From Candidatus Zixiibacteriota bacterium (GTDB lineage Bacteria; Zixibacteria; MSB-5A5; SM23-73-2), in assembly GCA_030615745.1 (NCBI GenBank), contig JAUWYR010000023.1, positions 1 through 37,759 of the forward strand: DNA of 37,759 nucleotides, read 5' to 3'. Below, in pieces: positions 1,116-35,982 of this stretch (the first letter of the stretch is position 1; the number at the start of each line of letters is the position of its first letter). Under the pieces are notes generated by a model, which ran no database searches, was not told the DNA's origin, and saw only the letters and a list, made by a program, of their open reading frames with translations. The position numbers were made by a program, and so were the translations under genes.

Positions 1116-3014
1116 CTAAAACCTTTTTTCTAAATCTAAGATCACATCTTTAGTCGATTTCAGAATTTTTTTCATCGCTTCGGTTGTTGAGGAGAAATTT
1201 GCAAATCGAGCAAGATCGCACTGGTCCAAAAGCTTTATTAGCCTTTTCATTTTTTCTTTATCAATACCTTTTTTTTCTAACTCTTTTATTATTTCCTCTT
1301 TAGTTAAACCGAAAGCAGAAAGATTCAGCTTATCTCCTATGTATGAGGTTAAGGCTTTAGCTATCTCAGAATAAAATTGTTTTGTTTTTCTCGAATCGAT
1401 TAACTTTTGAGCAGATTTAAGTCTTTTTTTGGCTAATTTATACGCTTTTCTTTTGCGAGCATATTCAATATCAGTTTCAAGCTTTTGTTTTTGTCTTGTG
1501 TATTGGTATGCAATTATCAAAACTAAAAGGGGCAAAAACTGAAAAAGTAAAAAAAATGGGTTTTTAAAAAGATAGCCGCCTTGATTTTTCAATCCCTCAA
1601 GACTTATTTTAATATATCTTATGTCCTTTAGCTCGAACTCAATCTCTTCTTTAGGAATTTGAGCCAAAGGGGTGGATGGAAGGGATGTGGAAGGATAAGC
1701 TGTTATCACAAATGGTGTGGTTTTTAGTATCTGATATTTTTTTGTCTTTAAATTAAAATAAGGATACTCAACAGAAGGGATAGTGTAACTACCTGGAGCT
1801 TTGGGTATCAGCACCTCCTCGTAGATTTTAAAGCCTTGAACTTTATAATCCTTTTTGGAAACTTCTTCCGAGCTTCCTGAGCTATAAACTCTGAAATCAT
1901 CCATCTGAGGAATTATGGGTTCTGTTATAGATTTAATATTTCCCTCACCAGAAATTTTGATTTTCAGAGTGATAGGCTGACCAGCTTCAAGCTCTTTTTT
2001 GTCAACCCATGCTGAGATGGAAAGTTCTCCCACTGTTCCTTTAAAACCATCTGGTTTTCCTTGCTCAGGAAGAGGCAAAACCTCGATCTCTATAGGTTTG
2101 GTTTTCAATATCTTTGGCTTTCTTTCCCGAAAAAGGTTTGTGATATCACGATCTAAGATATTGAAAGGGTCAAAATCAAAAAATCTATCTATATCTTCCA
2201 CTCTACACTTCAAAGTAGCCTGTCCAATGGTATGCTTTCCTGCTCTGGTTGGAAACAAAGCGGTCTTGATCTCTGTGACAAAGTATCTTTTTCCATCAAT
2301 TGTTTTGTAGTATTGTTTTTGAGGGGGGAGATCCTCCACCCAGAATCCGGTTAGGGTTGGAGGGGTGTATTCGGGGCTTCTGAAAAGCCTAACACCCTGA
2401 TAGAACCTGAAGGTTAGAGTTATCTGCTGGTTTACAAAAGCTTTCTTCTTATCAACGGCTGTTTGAATGAAAAGGCCTTTTGCCTTCTCTTTCATCTTTT
2501 TTTCCTCTATCTTCTCAGAAGGAGTCAATCCCTTTTGAATTCTTGATGATACAATTATTTTGATAGGTGCGGTTTTGTAAACTTTTCCCTCCAAAGAGAT
2601 CTCAGCTGGACCTATAGTAAACTCCCCTTCTTTTTTAGGAACCAAGATGTAGTTGAAGGTTACCGAGGAGGAGACCTTACCATTTACAAACTCAAAACTC
2701 TGAGATCTGCCTGCAGAGAATACCGCAAAATCATTCAATGATGGAAGCTCAGGCTGGGGAATGGATTTAACATTTCCAGAAACTCTTATGGTCAAATTAA
2801 TCTGCTCATCCAAACTCAGTTGTGTGCGGTCAACATTTGCCTCGAAAAGAATATCTTGTGCAAAAGAATTTGATAGTAAAAGGATAAAACAGAATATAAA
2901 AATTTTAATAACCGAAAAAGTAACTCCCTTTGTTATTTTTAAATTATTTACAACGTTTTCCGTTTCTCGTTTCTCGTTTCCCGTATACTGGTTATTCTCT
3001 ACTTTGTGTTCCAT
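1116..3014 (-). CDS. batD: BatD, oxygen-tolerance family membrane protein
   Basis: The 632-residue product has an N-terminal membrane/signal segment (about 34-53, ending SFAQ), two to three Ig-like beta domains in the exported part, one membrane helix near 485-505 and a cytoplasmic helical tail with the motif CDLARFANF. BatD proteins bind partners in the Bat complex through their Ig-like domains; no enzymatic activity is known. The start at 3014 is preceded by TGAGGT about 10 bases upstream, and no ATG, GTG or TTG lies between it and the signal segment. The product therefore carries an unusual charged extension of about 30 residues before the signal. Part of that extension (NEKRETEN) is encoded by a 7-bp repeat array at 2954-2988. 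A diverged duplicate of this 5' end lies just upstream (3170-3266). Confidence 0.82.
   Translation of the reverse strand: MEHKVENNQYTGNEKRETENVVNNLKITKGVTFSVIKIFIFCFILLLSNSFAQDILFEANVDRTQLSLDEQINLTIRVSGNVKSIPQPELPSLNDFAVFSAGRSQSFEFVNGKVSSSVTFNYILVPKKEGEFTIGPAEISLEGKVYKTAPIKIIVSSRIQKGLTPSEKIEEKKMKEKAKGLFIQTAVDKKKAFVNQQITLTFRFYQGVRLFRSPEYTPPTLTGFWVEDLPPQKQYYKTIDGKRYFVTEIKTALFPTRAGKHTIGQATLKCRVEDIDRFFDFDPFNILDRDITNLFRERKPKILKTKPIEIEVLPLPEQGKPDGFKGTVGELSISAWVDKKELEAGQPITLKIKISGEGNIKSITEPIIPQMDDFRVYSSGSSEEVSKKDYKVQGFKIYEEVLIPKAPGSYTIPSVEYPYFNLKTKKYQILKTTPFVITAYPSTSLPSTPLAQIPKEEIEFELKDIRYIKISLEGLKNQGGYLFKNPFFLLFQFLPLLVLIIAYQYTRQKQKLETDIEYARKRKAYKLAKKRLKSAQKLIDSRKTKQFYSEIAKALTSYIGDKLNLSAFGLTKEEIIKELEKKGIDKEKMKRLIKLLDQCDLARFANFSSTTEAMKKILKSTKDVILDLEKRF
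2954..2988 (-). repeat. heptamer array, CGTTTCT type (5 units)
   Basis: Five consecutive 7-bp units read on the plus strand as CGTTTTC, CGTTTCT, CGTTTCT, CGTTTCC, CGTATAC. The array lies inside the 5' end of batD and encodes part of the charged extension before its signal segment. Seven is not a multiple of three, so each unit is read in a different frame. Confidence 0.8.
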
Positions 3015-3091
3015 TACTACTACCTCATCAACAAAGTTTTCGTAAGTTTTTTAATTTGAGTCTGAACAAAAGGTATTATTGGTTGCTCTTG

Positions 3092-3165
3092 GACGGATGT
3101 TATCATCCGTCTTCCTATCCGGCTGGATGATTCGTATGAATGCATACGCATAACATCCAGCCGGA
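3092..3165. repeat. double hairpin, REP-like palindromic element
   Basis: Two back-to-back palindromes lie between batC and batD. The first is GACGGATG (3092-3099), loop TTAT, CATCCGTC (3104-3111). The second has a 12-bp outer stem, TCCGGCTGGATG (3118-3129) with CATCCAGCCGGA (3154-3165), enclosing an inner stem CGTATG (3133-3138) with CATACG (3143-3148). Both share the GGATG/CATCC core. There is no T-run, so it is more like a REP or MITE unit than a terminator. It may still affect batC-batD transcript processing. Confidence 0.75.
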
Positions 3166-3169
3166 GCAC

Positions 3170-3266
3170 AAAAATTTTAATCAGTGAAAAAACAATTCTT
3201 TTGGTTATTTTAAAATCCTTTATCCTGTTTTCTGTTTTCTGTTCACTGTTTTCTGTTTTCTGTATA
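3170..3266 (-). pseudogene. degenerate duplicate of the batD 5' end
   Basis: Read on the minus strand, this segment parallels the start of batD: GTATAC, then a heptamer array, then codons for KITKRIVFSLIKIF against KITKGVTFSVIKIF in BatD. The similarity stops where the double hairpin at 3118-3165 begins. The only frame through it starts with TTG inside the batC 3' end and has no export signal after the hairpin. I read it as a partial duplication rather than a gene. Confidence 0.6.
3225..3266 (-). repeat. heptamer array, CTGTTTT type (6 units)
   Basis: Six consecutive 7-bp units on the plus strand: CTGTTTT, CTGTTTT, CTGTTCA, CTGTTTT, CTGTTTT, CTGTATA. The array sits just after the batC stop. 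Its position inside the duplicated batD leader matches that of the CGTTTCT array inside batD, so the two arrays look like diverged versions of one. Confidence 0.8.
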
Positions 3267-3272
3267 CCATTC

Positions 3273-4052
3273 TTACCAGTCCTTTCCAATTTTTATTGTT
3301 TTCTTGCTTAAAAATCTTTTCTTCTGTTTCCGAAGCTCTTTTTCGTCATCTTTTATTGAGTTCAAAATCCTTTGTGCATCCTCTTTGGTCATATCTTCTT
3401 CTGGAGGAAGTGGCTGAATTTTTTTCTCCTCTTGTCTTTCTTTTTCTCTATCTTTTCCTAAAGATTCTTTTTTCTTCTGTTTTTCCTCTCCTTGCCGGAC
3501 AGGTTCTTTTTGTTGACCTTTTTCTTCTTTCAGTTTTTGTTCTTCTTCTTTTTTATCTTCTTTTTGTTCTTGTCTTGTCTTTTCATTTTCAAGCATCTTT
3601 TCCATCTTCTTTTTAACCAGTTCTAAGTTATATTTTGCATCCTCATCCCCAGGATTTATCTCCAGGCATTTTTGGTATGCTCCAATCGCCTCCTGATATT
3701 TCCCTGTTCTATAAAAAGTATTGCCAAGGTTGTAATAAGTATTTGCCTGTACTAAAGAATCCTTTAAGTCTGTTGCCTTAGAATATTTTAAAAGCGCCTT
3801 TTTATAGTCCTGTTTCTGGTAGAAAACATTACCGAGATTATATGAGAGCTCAGGTGAAGTTGGATTTTTGATCTCAGCCTCCTGGTAATATTTTAAAGCC
3901 TTATCATATAATCCCTTATTATAATGTTTGTTACCCTTATTATTTAATGAAGAAAACGAATCTGATCTGGCAATTCCTTGAAAAACAATGAAAAAAATTA
4001 TAAAGAAAAGAAAAAATTTTTGCACAAAATCTTTGTAATTCAATCTTCTCAC
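3273..4052 (-). CDS. batC: BatC-like TPR protein
   Basis: The 259-residue product begins with a signal peptide or membrane anchor (about 12-30). Three TPR units follow (about 35-145; motifs YNLGNVFYQ and YNLGNTFYR, about 34 residues apart). The C-terminal half is extremely Lys/Glu/Gln-rich, low-complexity and probably helical (about 150-255). BatC proteins are TPR partners of the VWA proteins BatA and BatB, as suggested for Bacteroides and Leptospira. The start codon overlaps the batB stop by 4 bases (ATGA), so translation is coupled. The charged tail is compositionally biased and could be disordered. Confidence 0.8.
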   Translation of the reverse strand: MRRLNYKDFVQKFFLFFIIFFIVFQGIARSDSFSSLNNKGNKHYNKGLYDKALKYYQEAEIKNPTSPELSYNLGNVFYQKQDYKKALLKYSKATDLKDSLVQANTYYNLGNTFYRTGKYQEAIGAYQKCLEINPGDEDAKYNLELVKKKMEKMLENEKTRQEQKEDKKEEEQKLKEEKGQQKEPVRQGEEKQKKKESLGKDREKERQEEKKIQPLPPEEDMTKEDAQRILNSIKDDEKELRKQKKRFLSKKTIKIGKDW

Positions 4053-5062
4053 CTTTTTTTCTCTTTCTTCTTTTCAGAGATGAAAAGCTCAAGGAAAAGA
4101 AAAAGAAAAGAGATTATCAAAAAATATTGATAGCGTTCCTCATACTGGGTAAACATTTTCCCCTGGAGCTCTTTTTTTTCCATTTTTGAGACCTCATCAT
4201 ATATTTTGTCAAGCTCTATCTCCCCTGCTGATGCACGAAAATATTTTCCACCAGTTTTTTCTGCAATTTTCTGTAATGTGAACTCATCCAACCTTGATAA
4301 AATAACCTCTCCCTTTTCATCCTTTTTAAATCCACTCACTCCCCCTTTTTTGTCTTTTAAAGGAATAGGTTCTCCTTCAGGTGAGCCGATCCCTATGGTA
4401 TATATAATTATACCCTCCCCTTTTGCCTCTTTGGAAGCATCTTGTGGGTTTGAACCATGGTCTTCTCCATCAGTTATCAAAACCAGGACCTTGAACTTTT
4501 TCTCCTTTTGGCTGAAAGCTACCCTTGAAGTTCTGATAGCATCTCCTATGGCAGTCCCTAGTTGAGGGATTAAATCTGGATCCATTATCTCTAAAAACAT
4601 CTTGGCTGCAGATAGATCCAAAGTCAAAGGGCACTGGATGAAACTTTCACCAGCAAAGGCAACCAAACCTACCCGGTCACCTTTCATTCTATCTATCAAT
4701 CCTGTAACCAAAAGCTTTGCTTTTTCCAATCGGTTGGGCTTAACATCCTCTGCCAGCATTGACAGGGATGTATCCAAAGCTATGATTATGTCAACCCCCT
4801 TCCTTTTAAGAAGGGTGAGCTTTTCTCCGAATTGCGGTCTTGCCAAAGAAAACCCTAAGAAAAAAAGTGCCAAAAGGATGAAAAAGACCTTAAGCTTCTG
4901 CTTTTCCGGACTATAAGAGGGCAAAAGCTTATGTATAATCTGTGGGCTTGCGAATCTTTCTTTTAAGGCTTTTTTCTGCCTGAAAACATAAAAGTAAAAT
5001 AAAACCAGAAGGGGTATAAGCAAAAACAAAAGATATAAATAATACTGTTCCTCAAATCTCAT
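4049..5062 (-). CDS. batB: BatB, VWA-domain membrane protein
   Basis: A 337-residue protein with two N-terminal membrane helices (about 8-27 and 57-75), a von Willebrand factor A domain (about 90-290) and a C-terminal helix (about 312-330). The metal-binding MIDAS site is complete: DTSLS at 97-101, Thr170 in GTAIGDAI and Asp198 in ITDGEDH. This is the standard BatA/BatB layout, with the VWA domain between membrane anchors, probably on the periplasmic side. The motif LARPQFG just before the domain is typical of the family. It lies 18 bases after batA and overlaps batC by 4 bases. Confidence 0.88.
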   Translation of the reverse strand: MRFEEQYYLYLLFLLIPLLVLFYFYVFRQKKALKERFASPQIIHKLLPSYSPEKQKLKVFFILLALFFLGFSLARPQFGEKLTLLKRKGVDIIIALDTSLSMLAEDVKPNRLEKAKLLVTGLIDRMKGDRVGLVAFAGESFIQCPLTLDLSAAKMFLEIMDPDLIPQLGTAIGDAIRTSRVAFSQKEKKFKVLVLITDGEDHGSNPQDASKEAKGEGIIIYTIGIGSPEGEPIPLKDKKGGVSGFKKDEKGEVILSRLDEFTLQKIAEKTGGKYFRASAGEIELDKIYDEVSKMEKKELQGKMFTQYEERYQYFLIISFLFLFLELFISEKKKEKKR

Positions 5063-8303: not shown

Positions 8304-8338
8304 ACCTACCACCTACCACCTATAACCTACGACCTAAA
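8304..8338 (-). repeat. heptamer array, ACCTACC type (5 units)
   Basis: Five consecutive units on the plus strand: ACCTACC, ACCTACC, ACCTATA, ACCTACG, ACCTAAA. On the coding strand the consensus is NNTAGGT, with the first two bases variable and TAGGT fixed. The array takes up most of the 51-bp gap between the moxR stop and the DUF58 start. It is the same repeat type and orientation as the array at 35920-35982. Confidence 0.85.
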
Positions 8339-35872: not shown

Positions 35873-35919
35873 TTTAGTTAACTTTGTTTTAATCTCTTTT
35901 TATATCAAACGAGAAAGAA

Positions 35920-35982
35920 ACCTATTACCTACTACCTATTACCTACCACCTACCACCTAAAACCTACCACCTAAAACCTAAT
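35920..35982 (-). repeat. heptamer array, ACCTACC type (9 units)
   Basis: Nine consecutive 7-bp units on the plus strand: ACCTATT, ACCTACT, ACCTATT, ACCTACC, ACCTACC, ACCTAAA, ACCTACC, ACCTAAA, ACCTAAT. On the coding strand the consensus is NNTAGGT, with TAGGT fixed. It is the longest array here, of the same type and orientation as that at 8304-8338. It runs into the 3' end of the deoxyhypusine-synthase-like gene and provides its last residues (LGFRW) and its TAG stop. Confidence 0.88.

Follow-up and report, generated by a model that had tools for sequence, protein, structure and literature searches.

In the window (the whole 37,759-nt stretch of Candidatus Zixiibacteriota bacterium DNA analyzed here), the 5′ end of the batD gene is present twice, once inside the intact gene and once as a relic upstream, and the relic ends at a double hairpin. 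The explanation that we favor, with some reserve, is that a small non-autonomous element carrying a 67-nt passenger tail entered the batD 5′ end with a direct target duplication of ~100 bp. We infer that a single event made both the insert and the duplication.

Duplication of the batD start at a double hairpin

The Bat operon lies on the − strand of the window in the order moxR, DUF58, tatA-like, batA, batB, batC, batD, and batE. The BatD domain and the order batA-batB-batC-batD-batE fit the Bat operon definition. Here, batD was assigned from Pfam, and batC and batE from TPR repeats and gene order; two genes were taken to be batA and batB from their translations, and some other gene names in the operon are likewise partly presumed. 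The batC stop codon and the batD ATG (3014) are separated by 258 nt, and the features of this junction are as follows.

3273–4052, − strand: batC, encoding a TPR protein; stop codon at 3273–3275
3170–3270, − strand: copy A, relic of the ancestral batD 5′ end, ending at the element
3084–3168, no strand assigned: double-hairpin element (TGCTC...GAGCA), one copy of a dispersed REPIN-like family
3017–3083, no strand assigned: tail carried with the element (67 nt, foreign)
3022–3026, − strand: GAGGT, Shine-Dalgarno-like, inside the tail and 7 nt before the batD ATG
2989–3016, − strand: 28-nt stretch holding the present batD start codon (ATG 3014–3012)
2898–2988, − strand: copy B, the duplicated 5′ end inside the intact batD
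1116–3014, − strand: batD, 632 aa, intact open frame, Pfam BatD 171 bits

Copy A opens with an ATG (3270–3268) located 2 nt after the batC stop, the same spacing and position as the batD ATG in G001, a genome of the same genus. This ATG is followed by GTATAC (3262–3267), heptamers (3225–3263), and then KITKRIVFSLIKIF in a different frame; by direct reading, the copy A frame is frameshifted and closes after 16 codons. Copy B contains GTATAC (2983–2988), heptamers (2957–2984), and KITKGVTFSVIKIF. The coordinates of both heptamer arrays are those reported by TRF.

The initial annotation had proposed that the segment at 3170–3266 mirrors the batD start, with GTATAC, heptamers, and KITK..IKIF in both, and that the similarity ends at a double palindrome. 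Both proposals were borne out. Copy A aligned to the batD start (2898–2988) with a score of 36, above all 500 shuffles (mean 11.9, maximum 21), and the similarity stopped no more than 2 nt from the double hairpin. The AT-rich part without heptamers scored 24 by itself (36/48 identical; mean 9.2 and maximum 16 in 500 shuffles), the two copies being 75% identical there, with about a quarter of positions differing. The 28 nt preceding copy B resembled the batC end no better than shuffles did. The double hairpin (hairpin 1, ~3092–3112; hairpin 2, 3118–3165, with an apex insert) gave a DNA folding energy of −28.7 kcal/mol (z −9.0), equaled by 0 of 200 shuffles.

The single-copy junction in relatives

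We compared the batC-batD junction among related genomes. Matches to batD were found in 6 of the 11 order genomes, the window's own genome included, and the five relatives (G001, G006, G007, G008, and G010) all had a single-copy junction with neither the duplicate nor the hairpin. The duplication and insert are therefore derived in the window lineage. These observations agree with the earlier proposals that a palindromic element marks the break of the old batD start and that a duplicate restored the gene: the element is a mobile-type hairpin dispersed in the genome, with a parallel at mnmE, and the gene downstream of it is intact. In G001, ATATGGTATACAGAAAACGG... follows the batC stop, batD begins 2 nt past this stop, and the gene reads through the heptamers as MVYRKRKTENIKKKEKSTEGIVFLLI; TAAGAATGGTATACAG occupies the same place in the window as the batD start does in G001. 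batD adjoins the batC stop also in G006, G007, G008, and G010.

One part of the initial annotation did not survive this comparison, namely that the duplication had left a charged extension before the signal peptide. G001, which has a long charged N-terminus and neither duplicate nor hairpin, already starts MVYRKRKTENIKKKEKSTEG before the signal peptide; this finding bears on the extension alone, and the element, the duplication, and the single-copy state of relatives stand. By inspection, the charged start of G001 and the KRETEN stretch of the window protein align in frame. Period-7 arrays were found at the batD start in all five relatives, at a value reached by at most 1 in 1000 shuffles, which together with the G001 start indicates that the charged, heptamer-coded start is old. 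Only about the first 13 residues (MEHKVENNQYTGN) of the window BatD are new. Since KITK/IKIF is common to copies A and B and missing from G001, the duplication is later than the split from G001.

The heptamer unit at the batC-batD junction differs in most relatives, as if arrays re-form at one place. Heptamer arrays are common, and their unit differs from place to place (in the window, 8304–8336, 35918–35981, 3225–3263, and 2957–2984). A 338-kb sample of the window's own genome (G000) yielded 21 TRF period-7 rows with a score of at least 40, versus 0 in one shuffle, and 23 of the 35 period-7/14/21 arrays in the sample sit in gaps between co-directional genes.

A dispersed family of hairpin elements

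Members of the element family open with TGCTC and close with GAGCA; between these lie one hairpin around GGATGTTATCATCC and another around GGATGATAACATCC, separated by a short spacer. In the window's own genome, the copies at C18, C28, and C56 are near-complete and those at C70, C48, and C61 are short forms; weaker ones also occur. A covariance model built from seven copies found matches (E ≤ 1) in 10 of the 11 order genomes: 43 in G000, 50 in G003, 70 in G004, 36 in G005, and 0–13 in each of the other seven, counts in which a palindromic copy can score on both strands. At stem positions 1–4 by the constant core, 83–100% of distinct elements paired, with many pair types, versus shuffled-partner means of 42–70% (41 and 25 distinct rows out of 49 elements). 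The exact double core occurred in 32 stretches of the genome collection, of which 24 were from Zixibacteria, 3 from Chloroflexi, 2 from Dehalococcoidia, 2 from Latescibacterota, and 1 from Bacteroidales. The element content of G001 amounts to two weak, decayed long-form copies (its C70 = L034 and C10 = L045).

Apart from this junction, the 67-nt tail occurs at a single place in the genome, C56:10101–10277, also beside an element copy, suggesting that it either traveled or was captured along with the element. The tail stops 2 nt short of the batD ATG and places GAGGT 7 nt upstream of this codon, so that batD appears to use the new start codon with a ribosome-binding site supplied by the insert; GAGGT is missing from the C56 tail. 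The element copies at C56 (L002), C63 (L060), and G007:C440 (L033) share a 35-bp flank, AAAAAAGTTACATTTTGTTT.TT.CTGGAG, beyond hairpin 2, and one of the three belongs to the genome of another family.

A Y1 transposase gene between element halves

Y1_Tnp genes are present in all 11 order genomes, and their mere presence therefore says little. At G003:C36 (L140), a 186-aa Y1 gene (Y1_Tnp 23.8 bits, barely above the cut-off of 23) is flanked by CGCTCCCGCTGGATGTTATCATCCAGCGGG upstream and GGCGGATGATAACATCCGCCTAAGAGCG downstream, the two element halves in the same order and orientation. When 50 Y1 sources, some of which repeat a locus, were searched with the element model, only this one had both hairpins around the gene; L119/L143 and L144 carried an element elsewhere on the stretch, not enclosing the Y1 gene, and L027 gave only a weak match. 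Relatives of the G003:C36 protein (E ≤ 1e-25) were found in 4 of 132 phylum genomes, G000, G003, G004, and G005, which are the four element-richest of the 11 order genomes; this co-occurrence is not independent evidence because three of the four share a genus. The window's own genome has three Y1 genes, none with such a hairpin pair around it, and its RAYT of the same subfamily (G000:C25) is flanked by different hairpins. The Y1 genes related to G003:C36 at G003:C6 (L141), G005:C85 (L142), and G000:C25 are enclosed by other hairpin pairs; the hairpin pairs at G003:C6 and G005:C85 have the core TTGGTGTCCTCACCAA, likewise end TGCTC/AGCA, and have several copies nearby. Given the arrangement at G003:C36, the double hairpin is best understood as a REPIN-like derivative of a Y1/RAYT-type unit, one that lacks the gene, and a RAYT may have moved the element at batD.

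Duplications flanking other elements

The same arrangement was found at C61 of this genome, where yidC (presumably, from its translation) is followed by the relic of an mnmE start, then by the element and a gene for a 330-aa SPL-like radical SAM protein, and finally by intact mnmE, with the same polarity as in the batD case. The inserted gene is located as follows.

L111, 299–1288: SPL-like radical SAM gene between the mnmE relic and mnmE (Pfam SPL, 72.5 bits)

The relic (TrmE_N, 31 bits) comprises 185 nt similar to the true start (score 48) and ends ATAGCTG beside TGCTCC of the element. In each of the three relatives whose stretch extends far enough upstream of mnmE (G002, G003, and G004), yidC and mnmE are adjacent, with no insert. 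The batD and mnmE relics adjoin the same element end, and passenger DNA lies past the opposite end in both. Repeats of 31 bp at C18 and 59 bp at G004:C53 abut both element ends, and a 31-bp repeat at G006:C112 abuts one. At C28, C56, C70, and C48, no flanking duplication within 150 bp exceeded the shuffled maximum.

To place these cases, we used 59 candidate elements (55 by the core pattern and 4 long forms added by hand), a sample of the copies consisting of those retrieved; 6 with short or masked flanks were dropped and 53 tested. An abutting duplicate within 200 bp was found for 5/53 elements versus 5/1826 random sites on the same loci, and one within 1500 bp for 6/53 versus 18/1897. Intergenic control sites had an abutting duplication in 24/3380 cases, against the 5/53 elements. 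With the window excluded, the count was 4/52 (p 6e-5 versus random sites, p 7e-4 versus intergenic sites), and with both the window and L059 excluded it was 3/51 (p 1e-3 versus random sites). Altogether, 47 of the 53 elements had no recognizable abutting duplication within 1500 bp, indicating that duplication is not an obligate product.

Some flank matches were rejected as element duplications: those at L059 and L089 probably belong to another dispersed repeat family, and that at L079 is a run of N. This other family has the core GTAAACCTGAAGGTTTACACTCC / GTAAAACTTTAGTTTTAC and occurs at L089 (~4030–4090), L059, and L075.

Discussion

Under the explanation that we favor, an element whose inverted hairpins end TGCTC/GAGCA would have entered the batD start together with its 67-nt tail, and ~100 bp of target would have been directly duplicated along with the insertion. 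The upstream copy would then have decayed to a frameshifted relic, with the downstream copy staying joined to the gene body, and batD would now be read from a new ATG, its Shine-Dalgarno-like sequence sitting in the passenger tail. A single-stranded intermediate was probably joined at a gap or stalled fork, 30–190 nt of target being re-copied by template switch or fill-in. A simple model of this kind has the 28 nt between the tail and GTATAC counting against it, because they set copy B apart from the tail. The occurrence of large duplications at gene starts may reflect a bias in retention, since insertion without duplication would destroy the gene. We put forward only tentatively the broader possibility that a RAYT-type element re-copying 30–190 bp of target can insert at the beginning of a needed gene without killing it and can carry passenger DNA along, which would be the 67-nt tail with its ribosome-binding site at batD and the whole SPL-like gene at mnmE.

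A somewhat unlikely alternative, though the strongest one, comprises two events, in which the batD 5′ end was first duplicated in tandem and the element then entered the junction or the dispensable upstream copy. The heptamer arrays in both copies, and the period-7 arrays at the junction in 5/5 relatives, could promote slippage or unequal exchange, and selection would tolerate an insertion only where a spare copy exists. However, the element is placed exactly where copy A ends, and also exactly at the duplicate edge in mnmE, C18, and G004:C53, and no heptamers are visible in the printed mnmE and C18 duplicates.

Palindromes are subject to SbcCD-type cleavage, and the element could instead have come first, with later hairpin breakage and repair from a sister copy producing the flanking duplications. 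The strong hairpins, and the fact that most elements have no duplications, as expected of a secondary duplication, are compatible with this order of events, but it needs a period with a disrupted batD or mnmE start, and several duplications stop at the edge of the element instead of at random distances from it; we consider it improbable. It is very doubtful that the hairpins were kept as an RNA element controlling batC/batD expression, the duplication being incidental. The RNA fold is stable (−44.2 kcal/mol) and the stems covary, but covariation is equally expected of hairpins recognized as single-stranded DNA, copies lie at unrelated loci, an Rfam search of the window gave no match, and the element is absent from the junction in 5/5 relatives. 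An assembly artefact at a dispersed repeat is scarcely credible even for a draft genome of 74 contigs in which the element is repeated, as a mis-join would yield identical copies or unrelated neighbors, whereas these copies differ at about a quarter of positions and their flanks are the same operon in relatives.

The insertion with target duplication that we favor has partial counterparts in known systems. RAYTs are described as Y1 transposase-like genes enclosed by two inverted hairpins (PMC2817692), and REPINs are described in PMC3116915. The present family resembles REPIN/BIME and RAYT systems in its short inverted hairpin pair with many dispersed copies and in the Y1 gene between inverted hairpins in a relative, at the one RAYT locus G003:C36. 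It differs in its TGCTC/GAGCA foot, the GT(A/G)G head of REP systems being absent here, in the 31–185-bp direct duplications flanking some copies, and in the restored downstream gene and passenger DNA at two genes. IS200/IS605 elements share the transposase superfamily (Pfam Y1_Tnp) and hairpin ends, but, according to PMC2817692, produce no larger target site duplications, so the duplications within 200 bp of 5/53 elements were unexpected. Our literature search for long target duplications at REPIN/RAYT or bacterial miniature elements found none, which is not proof of absence.

Rickettsia palindromic elements enter protein-coding genes. REP insertions into coding genes are described as leaving the reading frame undisrupted (PMC6006769). 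The batD case is like both in that a palindromic repeat entered a protein-coding gene, but here the gene has a duplicated 5′ end, and the insert is not within the gene in use. Intergenic direct repeats of the heptamer TAACTGA are described in Beggiatoaceae (PMC4679880), similar to the period-7 arrays between genes in the present genomes; here, in contrast, the unit varies by locus and the array belongs to the coding sequence at the start of batD.

PMC8266576 describes the means by which RAYTs spread REP/REPIN sequences as unresolved. Should long target duplications be coupled to insertion, the reaction would be recorded in the sequences flanking an element, and a simple assay would be possible. 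Such coupling would also give genes a concrete way to acquire a new start and upstream sequence while keeping their function.
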